A stretch of 64,000 bases of DNA from Dietzia psychralcaliphila (GTDB lineage Bacteria > Actinomycetota > Actinomycetes > Mycobacteriales > Mycobacteriaceae): positions 1,798,001-1,862,000 of the forward strand of contig NZ_CP015453.1 of NCBI RefSeq assembly GCF_003096095.1, written 5' to 3'. The notes beneath the pieces are model-generated. The model was given only the letters and a program-made list of their open reading frames with translations. It searched no databases and was not told where the DNA came from. Position numbers and translations under genes: made by a program. The number at the start of each line of letters is the position of its first letter. The stretch's first letter is position 1. Of this stretch, positions 1 through 5,524 are shown piece after piece.

Positions 1-125
1 CACCGTTCGACGACGGGCCGGAAGAAGTACCGGGCGATCTCGTCCGGCCCGAGCGAGCGCGACCCCTCGCCCCCGACGCTGGTGATCCCGAACTCTGTCT
101 CGATCCCGACGATGCGACGGATCAT
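1..125 (-). CDS. pafA: Pup ligase PafA (N-terminal part only)
   Basis: The gene runs off the left edge of the window; only the first 41 codons are present. The start reads [15 protein letters not shown], and the G-IETEFG motif is the ATP/metal-binding N-terminus shared by PafA and Dop. The [16 protein letters not shown] stretch that follows matches PafA rather than Dop. PafA joins the C-terminal glutamate of Pup to substrate lysines using ATP. The start lies 6 nt after the pup stop, so the two genes are probably co-transcribed and translationally coupled. No prcB or prcA gene lies between them. Confidence 0.9.
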
Positions 126-131
126 GACTGT

Positions 132-308
132 CTACTGCCCGCCCTTCTGGACGTAGGACTTCACGAACTCCTCGGCGTTGGTCTCGAGGATGTCGTCGAT
201 CTCGTCGAGTAGGGAGTCGGCGGACGAGGTCTGTGCGGTCTTGGCGACCTGGCCGGCCTCGTCGTCCGACTCGCCTGCGCCGCCGGCGTTCTTCTGGATC
301 TGGGACAT
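132..308 (-). CDS. pup: Prokaryotic ubiquitin-like protein Pup
   Basis: This is a 58-residue acidic protein ending in Gly-Gly-Gln (YVQKGGQ). The GGQ end is the Pup signature; Dop deamidates the last Gln to Glu before ligation. The middle (SADSLLDEIDDILETNAEEF) matches the helical region that binds the ARC/Mpa coiled coil and the ligase. An AGGAG ribosome site stands about 9 nt before the ATG at 308. At 58 residues it is slightly shorter than the roughly 64 of M. tuberculosis. It lies between dop, 73 bp upstream, and pafA, 6 nt downstream, in one operon. Confidence 0.97.
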   Translation of the reverse strand: MSQIQKNAGGAGESDDEAGQVAKTAQTSSADSLLDEIDDILETNAEEFVKSYVQKGGQ

Positions 309-381
309 CGTGGTGAGCTCCTGTGGGTGGGGCGGGCGGGTCGGACCGGGTTGGTCGGACTGGGCTGGTCGGACGGGATCC

Positions 382-1899
382 TCAGCGAACCGGCGGGCCG
401 TCGGGGCTGAGGAAGTCCGGTTGGGCGTCGCAGTGGGCGCGGGTCCCCGTGTACGGGTCGGCCAGGTCCACGTGACGGTGGTCGCCGCGGGAATCGACGA
501 CGACGACGTGATCCCATCCCGCGGCGTGGACGCGGTCGCCGAGTTCGGCCAGGAAGCGTCCCCTGGCCCAGGCCCGCGTGGACTCGGGTGGGGTCGTGAC
601 CGCGGCTTCCACCTGGGCCTCGGTGACCATCCTTCGCATCGCGCCCTTGGTCACCAGACGGTTGTAGAGTCCACGGTCCGGGTCGATGTCGTGGTACTGG
701 ACGTCGATGAGGGCGAGTCGCGCGTGGTCCCAGCCCAGGGAGTCCCGCGTCCGGAACCCCTCCAACAGTCGGAGCTTGGCCGGCCAGTCGAGCCGGTCGG
801 CGCACGACATGGGGTTCTGCTCGAGCGCCTCGAGGATCTCCCGCCATTCGGTCAGGACCTCGACGGCCCACCCCGGACGCCCCGTGCCGTCCCCGATCAA
901 CGCTGAGACGCGGTCGAGGATCTCCCACTGGAGCGCGACCCCCGTGAGCTCGCGGCCGTCGGGCAGCGCGACGGTGGCGGTGAGGGTCGGGTCATGGCTG
1001 ATGACGTGCACCGCCTCGACGGGGTCGACCGGGACCAGGTCGGCGAAGTCGATCCCCGCCTCGATCGCGTCCAGCACGAGGCAGGTGGTGCCGATCTTGA
1101 GGTACGTCGCCAGCTCGGACATGTTCGCGTCGCCGATGATGACGTGCAGGCGCCGCCAGGTCTCATCCGGGGCGTGCGGCTCGTCGCGGGTGTTGATGAT
1201 CCCGCGGCGCAGGGTGGTCTCGAGCCCGGTGAGCACCTCGATGTAGTCGGCGCGCTGGGAGAGCTGGAAGCCCGCCTTCTCGCCCGCCTGCCCGATACCG
1301 ACACGTCCGGCCCCGCAGTACACCTGGCGTGAGAGCAGGTGCGGTGCCAGGCTCATCGTCAGGGCGTCGAAGTCGACGTCGCGACGCACGAGGTAGTTCT
1401 CGTGGGCGCCGTAGGACGCGCCCTTGCCGTCGACGTTGTTCTTGTAGAGCTTGAGCTCGGCGTTCCCCTCGACGGCGGACGACTCGCGGCCGGCCCGGTG
1501 CATCACCGACTCCCCCGCCTTGTCCCAGATCACCGCGTCGATCGGCGAGTCGACCTCGGGCGATGAGTACTCGGGGTGCGCGTGGTCCACGTAGAAGCGG
1601 GCGCCGTTGGTCAGGACCCGGTTGGTCACCCCGAACTCACTCGGGTCATAGGCGCGGGCGGAGCCGAGGTCGAAGCCGCGGGCATCGCGGAGTGGCGATT
1701 CGGACCCGTAGTCCCAGCGGGTCCCATCGGTCGACCCGGAGCCCTCGCCCGGGTCGGTGTAGGCCTTGACCACCTGGGTCGAGGTGACCACCGAGCTGAG
1801 CAGCGGCTGGCCCACCGCCACGATGCCGAACTCGATCTCGGTGCCGATCACCCGGCCTCGCACGATCTCACCGGATGCCATCAGTACGGGCGGGGTCAC
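382..1899 (-). CDS. dop: Pup deamidase/depupylase Dop
   Basis: A 505-residue protein of the PafA/Dop carboxylate-amine ligase-like family. It has GTEIEFGI near the N-terminus, then TRWDYGSESPLRDARG, the LTNGARFYVDHAHPEYSSPE segment and YKNNVDGKGASYGAHENYL, all typical of Dop. It deamidates Pup-Gln to Pup-Glu and removes Pup from substrates. I chose the GTG at 1899: it overlaps the arc stop (GTGA) and has AGGAGG 7 nt upstream. An ATG at 1881 is the alternative. Length is close to the M. tuberculosis protein at about 500 residues. Confidence 0.96.
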   Translation of the reverse strand: MTPPVLMASGEIVRGRVIGTEIEFGIVAVGQPLLSSVVTSTQVVKAYTDPGEGSGSTDGTRWDYGSESPLRDARGFDLGSARAYDPSEFGVTNRVLTNGARFYVDHAHPEYSSPEVDSPIDAVIWDKAGESVMHRAGRESSAVEGNAELKLYKNNVDGKGASYGAHENYLVRRDVDFDALTMSLAPHLLSRQVYCGAGRVGIGQAGEKAGFQLSQRADYIEVLTGLETTLRRGIINTRDEPHAPDETWRRLHVIIGDANMSELATYLKIGTTCLVLDAIEAGIDFADLVPVDPVEAVHVISHDPTLTATVALPDGRELTGVALQWEILDRVSALIGDGTGRPGWAVEVLTEWREILEALEQNPMSCADRLDWPAKLRLLEGFRTRDSLGWDHARLALIDVQYHDIDPDRGLYNRLVTKGAMRRMVTEAQVEAAVTTPPESTRAWARGRFLAELGDRVHAAGWDHVVVVDSRGDHRHVDLADPYTGTRAHCDAQPDFLSPDGPPVR

Positions 1900-3605
1900 C
1901 GGTCGTCCTCCTGACGCGGGACGGTGACCTCGACAACGCGCTCGCCGCGCACGCCCGTCAGCCGCGCCCACTCCTGCGGGTTGGAGGTATTGGGCAGGTC
2001 GGTGTTCTCCGCGAACTCGGCGTCCACGGCGTCGAGGAAGTCGTCGGTCGTCAGGCCCTGCCCGGTGCCGTGGACGATGTCCTTGATCGCGAGCTTCTTG
2101 GCCCGGTCCACGATATTGCGCAGCATCGCTCCGGAGGTCAGGTCACCGAGGTACAGGGACGACCGGCGGCCCGACGCGTAGACCAGATGCACGTAGGTCG
2201 TGGACTCGTCCCGGGTGTAGAGCCGGTCGACGATCCGGGAGATCAGCCCTCCGACGTGGTCCTCGCCACTCGTCGAGCCGACCTCGTCAGGGTCGAAGCG
2301 CAGATCGGGGGTGATGTATTTGGCGAGGATGTCGGCCGCGGCGCCGGCGTCCGGTCGGTCGATGCGGATCTTGAGATCGAGACGACCGGGGCGAAGGATC
2401 GCCGGGTCGATCATGTCCTCCCGGTTGGATGCGCCGATCACGATGACGTTGCGCAGGTCCTCCACCCCGTCGATCTCGGCGAGGAGCTGCGGGACGATCG
2501 TGGTCTCCATGTCGGAGGAGATGCCCGATCCGCGGGTGCGGAAGATGGAGTCCATCTCGTCGAAGAAGACGATGACCGGGTTGCCCTCTGTCGCCTTCTC
2601 CCGTGCCCGCTCGAAGATCGACCGGATGTGCCGCTCCGTCTCGCCGACGTACTTGTTGAGCAGTTCAGGGCCCTTGATGGAGAGGAAATACGAGTTGGGG
2701 TACCGGCCGCCCGTGACGTCCTCCCCACGCGACTTCGCGGAGGCCAGCGCCAGCGAGTGCGCGACCGCCTTGGCGATCAGGGTCTTTCCACACCCGGGAG
2801 GGCCGTAGAGCAGCACACCCTTGGGTGGGGACAGATGGAACTCGCGGTACAGGTCGTGGTGCACGAAGGGCAGCTCGATGGCGTCGCGGATCTGCTCGAT
2901 CTGGGGGCCGAGACCGCCGATGTCGGAGTACTCGACCATCGGGATCTCCTCGAGCAGGAGCTCGTCGACCTCGGCCTTGGGCACGACCTCGAACGCCACG
3001 GCGGCCTTGGGGTCCACCAGCACGGCGTCCCCCGGCCGGACGGGGGCCGGGTGATCGGCGGTCCGCCCGCCGCGCAGGCCGGTCGCCAGATGAACGACGT
3101 GTTCCTCGTCGTTCCCCATCACCACGCGGGCCCGCATCCCGTCGGCCAGGACGTCCCGGAAGACGGCGGTGACGCCGGTGACCGGGAGTCCGGTACAGGC
3201 CTCGATGACGGTCATGGCCTCGTTCAGCCGGACGGTGACGCCCGCCGAGAGGACGGAGGCGTCGACCCCGGGTGCGAGTGTGAGCCGCATCCGTCGACCG
3301 GCGGCCATGACCTCCGCGGTATCGGCGTCCGTCGGTTCCTGCAGCACGATCCCGTAGGTGCTGGGCGGCGTGCCGAGGCGCTCGACCTCGCCCTTGAGGG
3401 CCTGCAGCTGATCGCGGGAGTCCTTGAGGAGCTCGGCCAGCCTGACGTTGCGGGCGCCGAGGGCGTCGATCTTGACCGACTTCTCGCGGTCCGTTCGGGC
3501 CCCCTCGTCGACGGCCCTGCGCAGCCGCGCGAGCTCGACCCGGTCCAGCGTCACGCTGTCGCCGCCCCGCTCGTCCGGGGAACGTCCCTCGGTCACCTCG
3601 ATCAC
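1896..3605 (-). CDS. arc: Proteasome-associated AAA ATPase ARC/Mpa, lacking the proteasome-docking tail
   Basis: A 569-residue protein with an N-terminal coiled coil (about residues 20-78), an interdomain OB region (about 80-210) and an AAA module. Walker A is GPPGCGKT (about 265-272) and Walker B is VIVFFDEMDS (about 341-350). In mycobacteria it unfolds pupylated proteins and feeds them to the 20S proteasome by inserting a C-terminal Gly-Gln-Tyr-Leu tail. Here the protein ends VTVPRQEDDR, with no GQYL and a shorter tail. That fits a proteasome-independent ARC as in Corynebacterium. The GTG start at 3605 has GGAGG 4 nt upstream. The stop overlaps the dop start. Confidence 0.95.
   Translation of the reverse strand: MIEVTEGRSPDERGGDSVTLDRVELARLRRAVDEGARTDREKSVKIDALGARNVRLAELLKDSRDQLQALKGEVERLGTPPSTYGIVLQEPTDADTAEVMAAGRRMRLTLAPGVDASVLSAGVTVRLNEAMTVIEACTGLPVTGVTAVFRDVLADGMRARVVMGNDEEHVVHLATGLRGGRTADHPAPVRPGDAVLVDPKAAVAFEVVPKAEVDELLLEEIPMVEYSDIGGLGPQIEQIRDAIELPFVHHDLYREFHLSPPKGVLLYGPPGCGKTLIAKAVAHSLALASAKSRGEDVTGGRYPNSYFLSIKGPELLNKYVGETERHIRSIFERAREKATEGNPVIVFFDEMDSIFRTRGSGISSDMETTIVPQLLAEIDGVEDLRNVIVIGASNREDMIDPAILRPGRLDLKIRIDRPDAGAAADILAKYITPDLRFDPDEVGSTSGEDHVGGLISRIVDRLYTRDESTTYVHLVYASGRRSSLYLGDLTSGAMLRNIVDRAKKLAIKDIVHGTGQGLTTDDFLDAVDAEFAENTDLPNTSNPQEWARLTGVRGERVVEVTVPRQEDDR

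Positions 3606-3701: not shown

Positions 3702-5524
<1,823 letters not shown>

Follow-up and report, generated by a model that had tools for sequence, protein, structure and literature searches.

The window analysed here is a stretch of 64,000 nucleotides (nt) from Dietzia psychralcaliphila (contig NZ_CP015453.1, positions 1,798,001 to 1,862,000), whose genome assembly comprises 3.90 Mb in 2 contigs and is 100% complete. Its left end carries a pupylation locus, with the genes for Pup, for the enzymes that act on it and for the Pup-binding ATPase ARC, in a genus that lacks the 20S proteasome. The order on the minus strand is trmI-like, arc, dop, pup, pafA, pafB and pafC, followed by tatC (Table 1); pafB, pafC and tatC lie outside the window and continue the operon.

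ARC, Dop, Pup and PafA were identified with NCBIfam equivalog models, each with its own cut-off, and scored 721.9 bits against TIGR03689 (cut-off 504.75), 678.5 bits against TIGR03688 (492.3), 71.7 bits against TIGR03687 (41.45) and 685.5 bits against TIGR03686 (551.3), respectively. ARC consists of AAA and two OB domains, and its alignment to the Mpa chain 7px9 (609 aa) reaches residue 584. The best solved relative of Dop is 9cku_G, a Pup deamidase/depupylase (579.5 bits). The GTG start of dop and the stop codon of arc overlap as GTGA, with an ATG further on at 1881, and the GGQ end of Pup would make deamidation by Dop necessary. An initial annotation, made from the sequence of this stretch alone, had placed pup 6 nt from pafA, with no prcB-prcA in between, and this was confirmed. 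The gap is 6 or -4 nt in all five Dietzia genomes compared, and 1617-4699 nt in the 19 20S-bearing loci where it was measurable. The gene on the other side of arc is presumably a trmI-like methyltransferase, to judge by its conserved position.

Table 1. Features of the Dietzia pupylation locus, and the Cpa gene elsewhere in the genome.
Feature	Position	Strand	Evidence and remarks
trmI-like tRNA methyltransferase	3702..4565	-	Adjoins arc upstream in most of 41 loci compared; start codon provisional
arc/mpa, Pup-binding AAA ATPase without C-terminal 20S-docking tail	3605-1896	-	TIGR03689; 569 aa, ends VPRQEDDR
dop, depupylase/deamidase	1899-382	-	TIGR03688; GTG start
pup	308-132	-	TIGR03687, PF05639, alignment; 58 aa, C-terminus GGQ
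6-nt pup-pafA gap	126..131	.	Site of prcB-prcA in 20S-bearing relatives
pafA, Pup ligase (first codons only in window)	1..125	-	TIGR03686; runs on left of window, L115:10719-12125
Cpa (Cdc48-like ATPase), intact	G000:C1:3185576-3188032 (L218:2577-5033)		818 aa; CDC48_N and two AAA modules

The 20S proteasome was searched for with the Proteasome family profile PF00227, which covers prcA, prcB and HslV. E. coli and B. subtilis are among the controls that matched, so that HslV is detected too; C. glutamicum, one of 14 named control genomes, is not among them. No match was found on either contig of the window's own genome, nor did the 23 genomes sampled from the genus, of which 15 are of high quality, give any. 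The profile thus found no prcBA elsewhere in the genome, and a loss private to this strain is ruled out by the result for the genus. HslUV as a replacement was rejected as well, since PF00227, which detects HslV, gave no match (the survey did not extend to Clp, Lon or FtsH). Across the order the family is present in 385 of 397 sampled genomes; the 12 without it are the window's own genome, nine of genus g7, G022 and G177 (63% complete). Within the family sample, 323 of 401 genomes matched and 3 of 31 genera had no match. All 201 genomes of g7 lack PF00227. This Corynebacterium-like genus we take to be Corynebacterium, given its species number, its lack of 20S and the best solved relative of its PafA, 4b0t, presumably the C. 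glutamicum enzyme. Genus g88 would also be 20S-less, as neither of its members was among the matches and three genera had none; in its member G612, pup directly precedes pafA.

The docking tail of ARC is missing as consistently as the 20S genes. The sequence GQYL is absent from the end of ARC in 27 of 27 Dietzia loci (23 distinct proteins), none of which has an aromatic residue in the penultimate position. The ARC proteins of three named contigs, from D. alimentaria, D. maris and Candidatus D. intestinigallinarum, are identical to those of three genomes from the window's genus, which identifies the host as Dietzia. The tail is also absent from all 30 g7 loci examined, which were kept from 61 genomes, and from ARC of G612. 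Among 76 other named ARC loci, 73 end in GQYL and three in GTYL, and GQYL is also the end of ARC in all 26 of an additional set of 20S-bearing genomes. In Dietzia, little is conserved beyond the last strand: pairwise identity is 42% in the last nine positions versus 92% in the preceding 20. A sequencing error that hides the tail is ruled out, as the tail is missing genus-wide, and there is no room for a hidden one because the start of dop overlaps the end of arc. As a separate observation, ARC ends in GQYL at L160 and L161 (G614 and G632), but no dop, pup or pafA turned up in the surrounding sequence that was retrieved; L054, named alongside them, is Segniliparus rugosus.

Bpa, the other GQYL-bearing activator, is reported to co-occur strictly with 20S. 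It was absent (PF10759) from 13 of 13 20S-less genomes tested (five Dietzia, seven g7 and G612 of g88) and present in 18 of 19 20S-bearing ones. The exception, G074, is 20S-bearing and has no PF10759 match, against the reported strict co-occurrence. G022, from another family, has neither PF00227 nor an ARC match, yet has Bpa, which may reflect an assembly gap or the loss of the whole locus.

Set against the presence of prcBA, the ARC tail is lost in 20S-less Dietzia and g7 and kept in 20S-bearing genomes. The initial annotation had compared the locus to the Corynebacterium state and had noted an ARC ending in QEDDR without GQYL; should prcBA be missing from the genome, it would in that view be a relative that lost the proteasome and kept the tagging genes. 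These points hold: no prcA or prcB was found in the genome or the genus, arc-dop-pup-pafA is present, and the absence of 20S and of the tail is genus-wide.

A tree of RpoB from 30 genomes placed four Dietzia, seven g7 and G612 in one clade (support 96/97), which adjoins the 20S-bearing G619 (93/91). A quick tree of ARC+Dop+PafA gave the same single 20S-less clade with a support of 100. Because the RpoB tree joins the three 20S-less genera, the simplest account is one shared loss of the 20S, which probably occurred in an ancestor of all three, Dietzia, Corynebacterium and g88. The alternative, that Dietzia lost its 20S in parallel with, and independently of, Corynebacterium, would fit the different retention of Cpa (described below) in these genera, and the approximately unbiased (AU) test leaves several arrangements within the clade (p 0.36 and 0.10). 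It is unlikely in view of the RpoB support, of the grouping of the operon proteins, long-branched as they are, and of the same combined absence of 20S, Bpa and tail. A proteasome loss, as the initial annotation proposed, is thus upheld, but probably not as a separate event.

Selection on the pathway was estimated from the ratio of nonsynonymous to synonymous substitution rates (dN/dS), comparing the window's genome with G411, G412, G403 and G418. The values were 0.087-0.290 for ARC, 0.141-0.298 for Dop, 0.139-0.258 for Pup and 0.091-0.219 for PafA, versus 0.041-0.107 for RpoB. The pathway is under purifying selection, though less constrained than RpoB. Divergence was expressed as a ratio, with the mean distance between Dietzia and its 20S-bearing relatives taken over the mean distance of these relatives from one another (7 to 10 of 10 were usable, depending on the gene). 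This ratio was 3.49 for ARC, 3.19 for Dop and 4.28 for PafA, 1.79 for PafB and 1.94 for PafC, and 1.37, 1.20 and 1.28 for RpoB, TrmI and Cpa.

The changes in ARC are unevenly distributed. Conserved positions were defined by an identity of 97% or more across 76 20S-bearing loci. All Dietzia differ at 43 of the 90 such positions that fall within the small AAA domain and the C-terminal part, versus 39 of the other 259 (p 2e-9); the large AAA domain was changed least (20/177). Five of the 43 lie at position 561 or beyond, where the alignment is loose over the shortened end. For g7 the counterparts were 22/90 and 23/259 (p 4e-4). By this pattern, ARC lost constraint mostly at its former tail-bearing end.

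The locus is, with good probability, a pupylation system that works in the 20S-less Dietzia as a non-degradative remodelling cycle. Dop would convert Pup-Gln to Pup-Glu, PafA would attach Pup to lysines, and Dop would take it off again. ARC, whose coiled coil, OB domains and ATPase are kept, most likely binds pupylated proteins via Pup, and would unfold them or pull apart their complexes, after which Dop would recycle the protein. No hand-over to a 20S is expected, because no 20S exists and ARC has no docking tail. We infer this cycle from C. glutamicum, and a general remodelling of this kind is our best reading of the function. That ARC might instead feed pupylated proteins to another peptidase, such as ClpP1P2, so that pupylation would still be degradative, is quite unlikely: the ATPase core is indeed kept, with the large AAA domain the least altered, but no replacement docking peptide is visible at an end that is 42% identical (a ClpP-binding loop was not searched for). 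It is highly unlikely that the system is decaying, roleless after the 20S loss and persisting by chance, for although ARC, Dop and PafA have diverged far beyond RpoB, TrmI or Cpa, ARC is present and full length in all 23 Dietzia genomes, it is found in all 61 sampled g7 genomes, one with an internal TGA, and the four comparisons gave dN/dS values far below 1 for each of ARC, Dop, Pup and PafA. The TGA lies inside the ARC match reading of L133, from the Corynebacterium-like G428.

In the C. glutamicum model, ARC disassembles pupylated ferritin and thereby releases iron (PMC8223512, PMC12288473). The main ferritin of Dietzia, in 7 of 7 genomes, belongs to another type and shares 24-27% identity with the ferritins found in six g7 genomes. 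Proteins of this type are very poor in lysine, with one to four residues and none common to all seven genomes (L272, L271, L261, L263, L269, L270 and L277). G403 additionally has a Corynebacterium-like ferritin. Ferritin gained no support as a likely Dietzia substrate, and neither did the iron release or storage suggested by the initial annotation, in what could be tested.

The ARC search revealed a second AAA protein with two such domains in Dietzia. Its N-domain (CDC48_N) and D1 and D2 modules, with intact Walker motifs, identify it as Cpa: among solved structures it matches the actinobacterial Cdc48 5e7p best (838.8 bits, next 465.1), and it shares 58-65% identity with the Cpa of family relatives, although it scores 409 against the CDC48 model TIGR01243, under the cut-off of 802.65. 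With Cpa as query, the protein was found in 5 of 5 Dietzia searched and in 13 of 18 20S-bearing genomes, five being without it, and only FtsH- or ARC-like matches were found in 12 of 12 g7 and 2 of 2 g88. In the ARC search, an AAA match distinct from the FtsH-like ones was present in 19 of 23 Dietzia, including all 15 of high quality. The gene precedes an Mrp-antiporter operon, as it does in relatives, and does not adjoin psd-pssA in G000 or G418, although these genes flank Cpa in the four relatives checked in detail. Since the Cpa tree (16 rows, without G014, which did not fit the ORF pattern) leaves the placement of Dietzia among its relatives unsettled (51/0), it is synteny that argues for vertical descent.

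Cpa changed little where ARC changed much. Among positions that do not vary between ten 20S-bearing relatives, all four Dietzia had changed 12 of 304 in Cpa versus 86 of 372 in ARC, in the same genomes (p 1e-13); within Dietzia, dN/dS of Cpa is 0.13-0.37. As a Cdc48-like double-ring ATPase, Dietzia Cpa must act without 20S, and it probably has an important 20S-independent role. We lean slightly to the view that proteasome activation is not the main task of Cpa, and that what has been conserved is a 20S-independent, Cdc48-like segregase activity. Dietzia could then, by a small balance of the evidence, be regarded as a natural experiment, in which 20S and Bpa are gone and the C-terminal side of ARC is remodelled, with Cpa in its ancestral place under unchanged constraints.

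Several points weigh against this account. G022 and G177 lack PF00227, so that assemblies can miss the family for other reasons. The grouping of Dietzia with g7, without g88, is not rejected in the RpoB tree (p-AU 0.36), and the long branches of the ARC+Dop+PafA tree meet. The strong divergence of ARC, Dop and PafA could be read as relaxed constraint. Pupylation of Dietzia proteins is itself what we infer, and the conserved ferritin lysines that would favour the C. glutamicum mechanism are absent. As to Cpa, the distinct AAA match is absent from G404, G407, G414 and G417 (64-87% complete), and in G411, a single contig, the gene reads as broken across two frames (L221, G411:C1:3022500-3028500).

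Pupylation without 20S has published precedent (PMC3511204, PMC8223512, PMC12288473), and about half of sequenced Actinobacteria have lost the core genes (PMC6466877). Corynebacteria lack prcBA, pup then stands directly before pafA, the ATPases of prcBA-less species lack the interaction motif and the pupylation enzymes are more variable (PMC3511204). The Dietzia locus resembles that of C. glutamicum and other 20S-less Actinobacteria in its arc-dop-pup-pafA order without prcBA, in pup next to pafA, in an ARC without the 20S interaction motif, in the lack of Bpa and in enzymes more variable than in 20S-bearing species. It differs in that Pup ends in GGQ in the five Dietzia genomes read, versus GGE in C. 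glutamicum (PMC3511204), that PafB and PafC are recognisable, that Cpa is retained (5/5) and that the main ferritin is of another type. With the Pup-proteasome system of mycobacteria, Rhodococcus and Streptomyces it shares the gene order, ARC/Mpa, Dop, Pup, PafA and PafBC, but not PrcA/PrcB, the GQYL end of ARC or Bpa. The operon state is thus already known from Corynebacterium, and Dietzia is a further genus in this class.

The retained Cpa weighs more than the operon itself. The protein is like known Cpa in CDC48_N, D1, D2, Walker motifs and Mrp-operon neighbourhood, and unlike it in its 20S-less genus and in not standing beside psd-pssA. In PMC6017811, no Actinobacterium without 20S genes is said to encode Cpa, a feature claimed for all 20S-less Actinobacteria that does not apply to Dietzia; two reviews, PMC6466877 and PMC8223512, repeat the co-occurrence. 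Dietzia contradicts it. A literature search for Dietzia with pupylation, Cdc48 or proteasome, and for Cpa, gave no report of the Dietzia case in the library searched, the proteasome papers listed being judged by title. No substrate of Cpa is known, and one of the reasons for assigning it to the proteasome is its claimed absence wherever 20S is missing (PMC6017811). In Dietzia, which lies outside the mycobacteria, a phenotype of Cpa could only be independent of 20S. As ARC was strongly changed and Cpa barely changed after the same loss, comparing their sequences offers a way to tell apart the constraints on the two rings that depend on 20S and those that do not.

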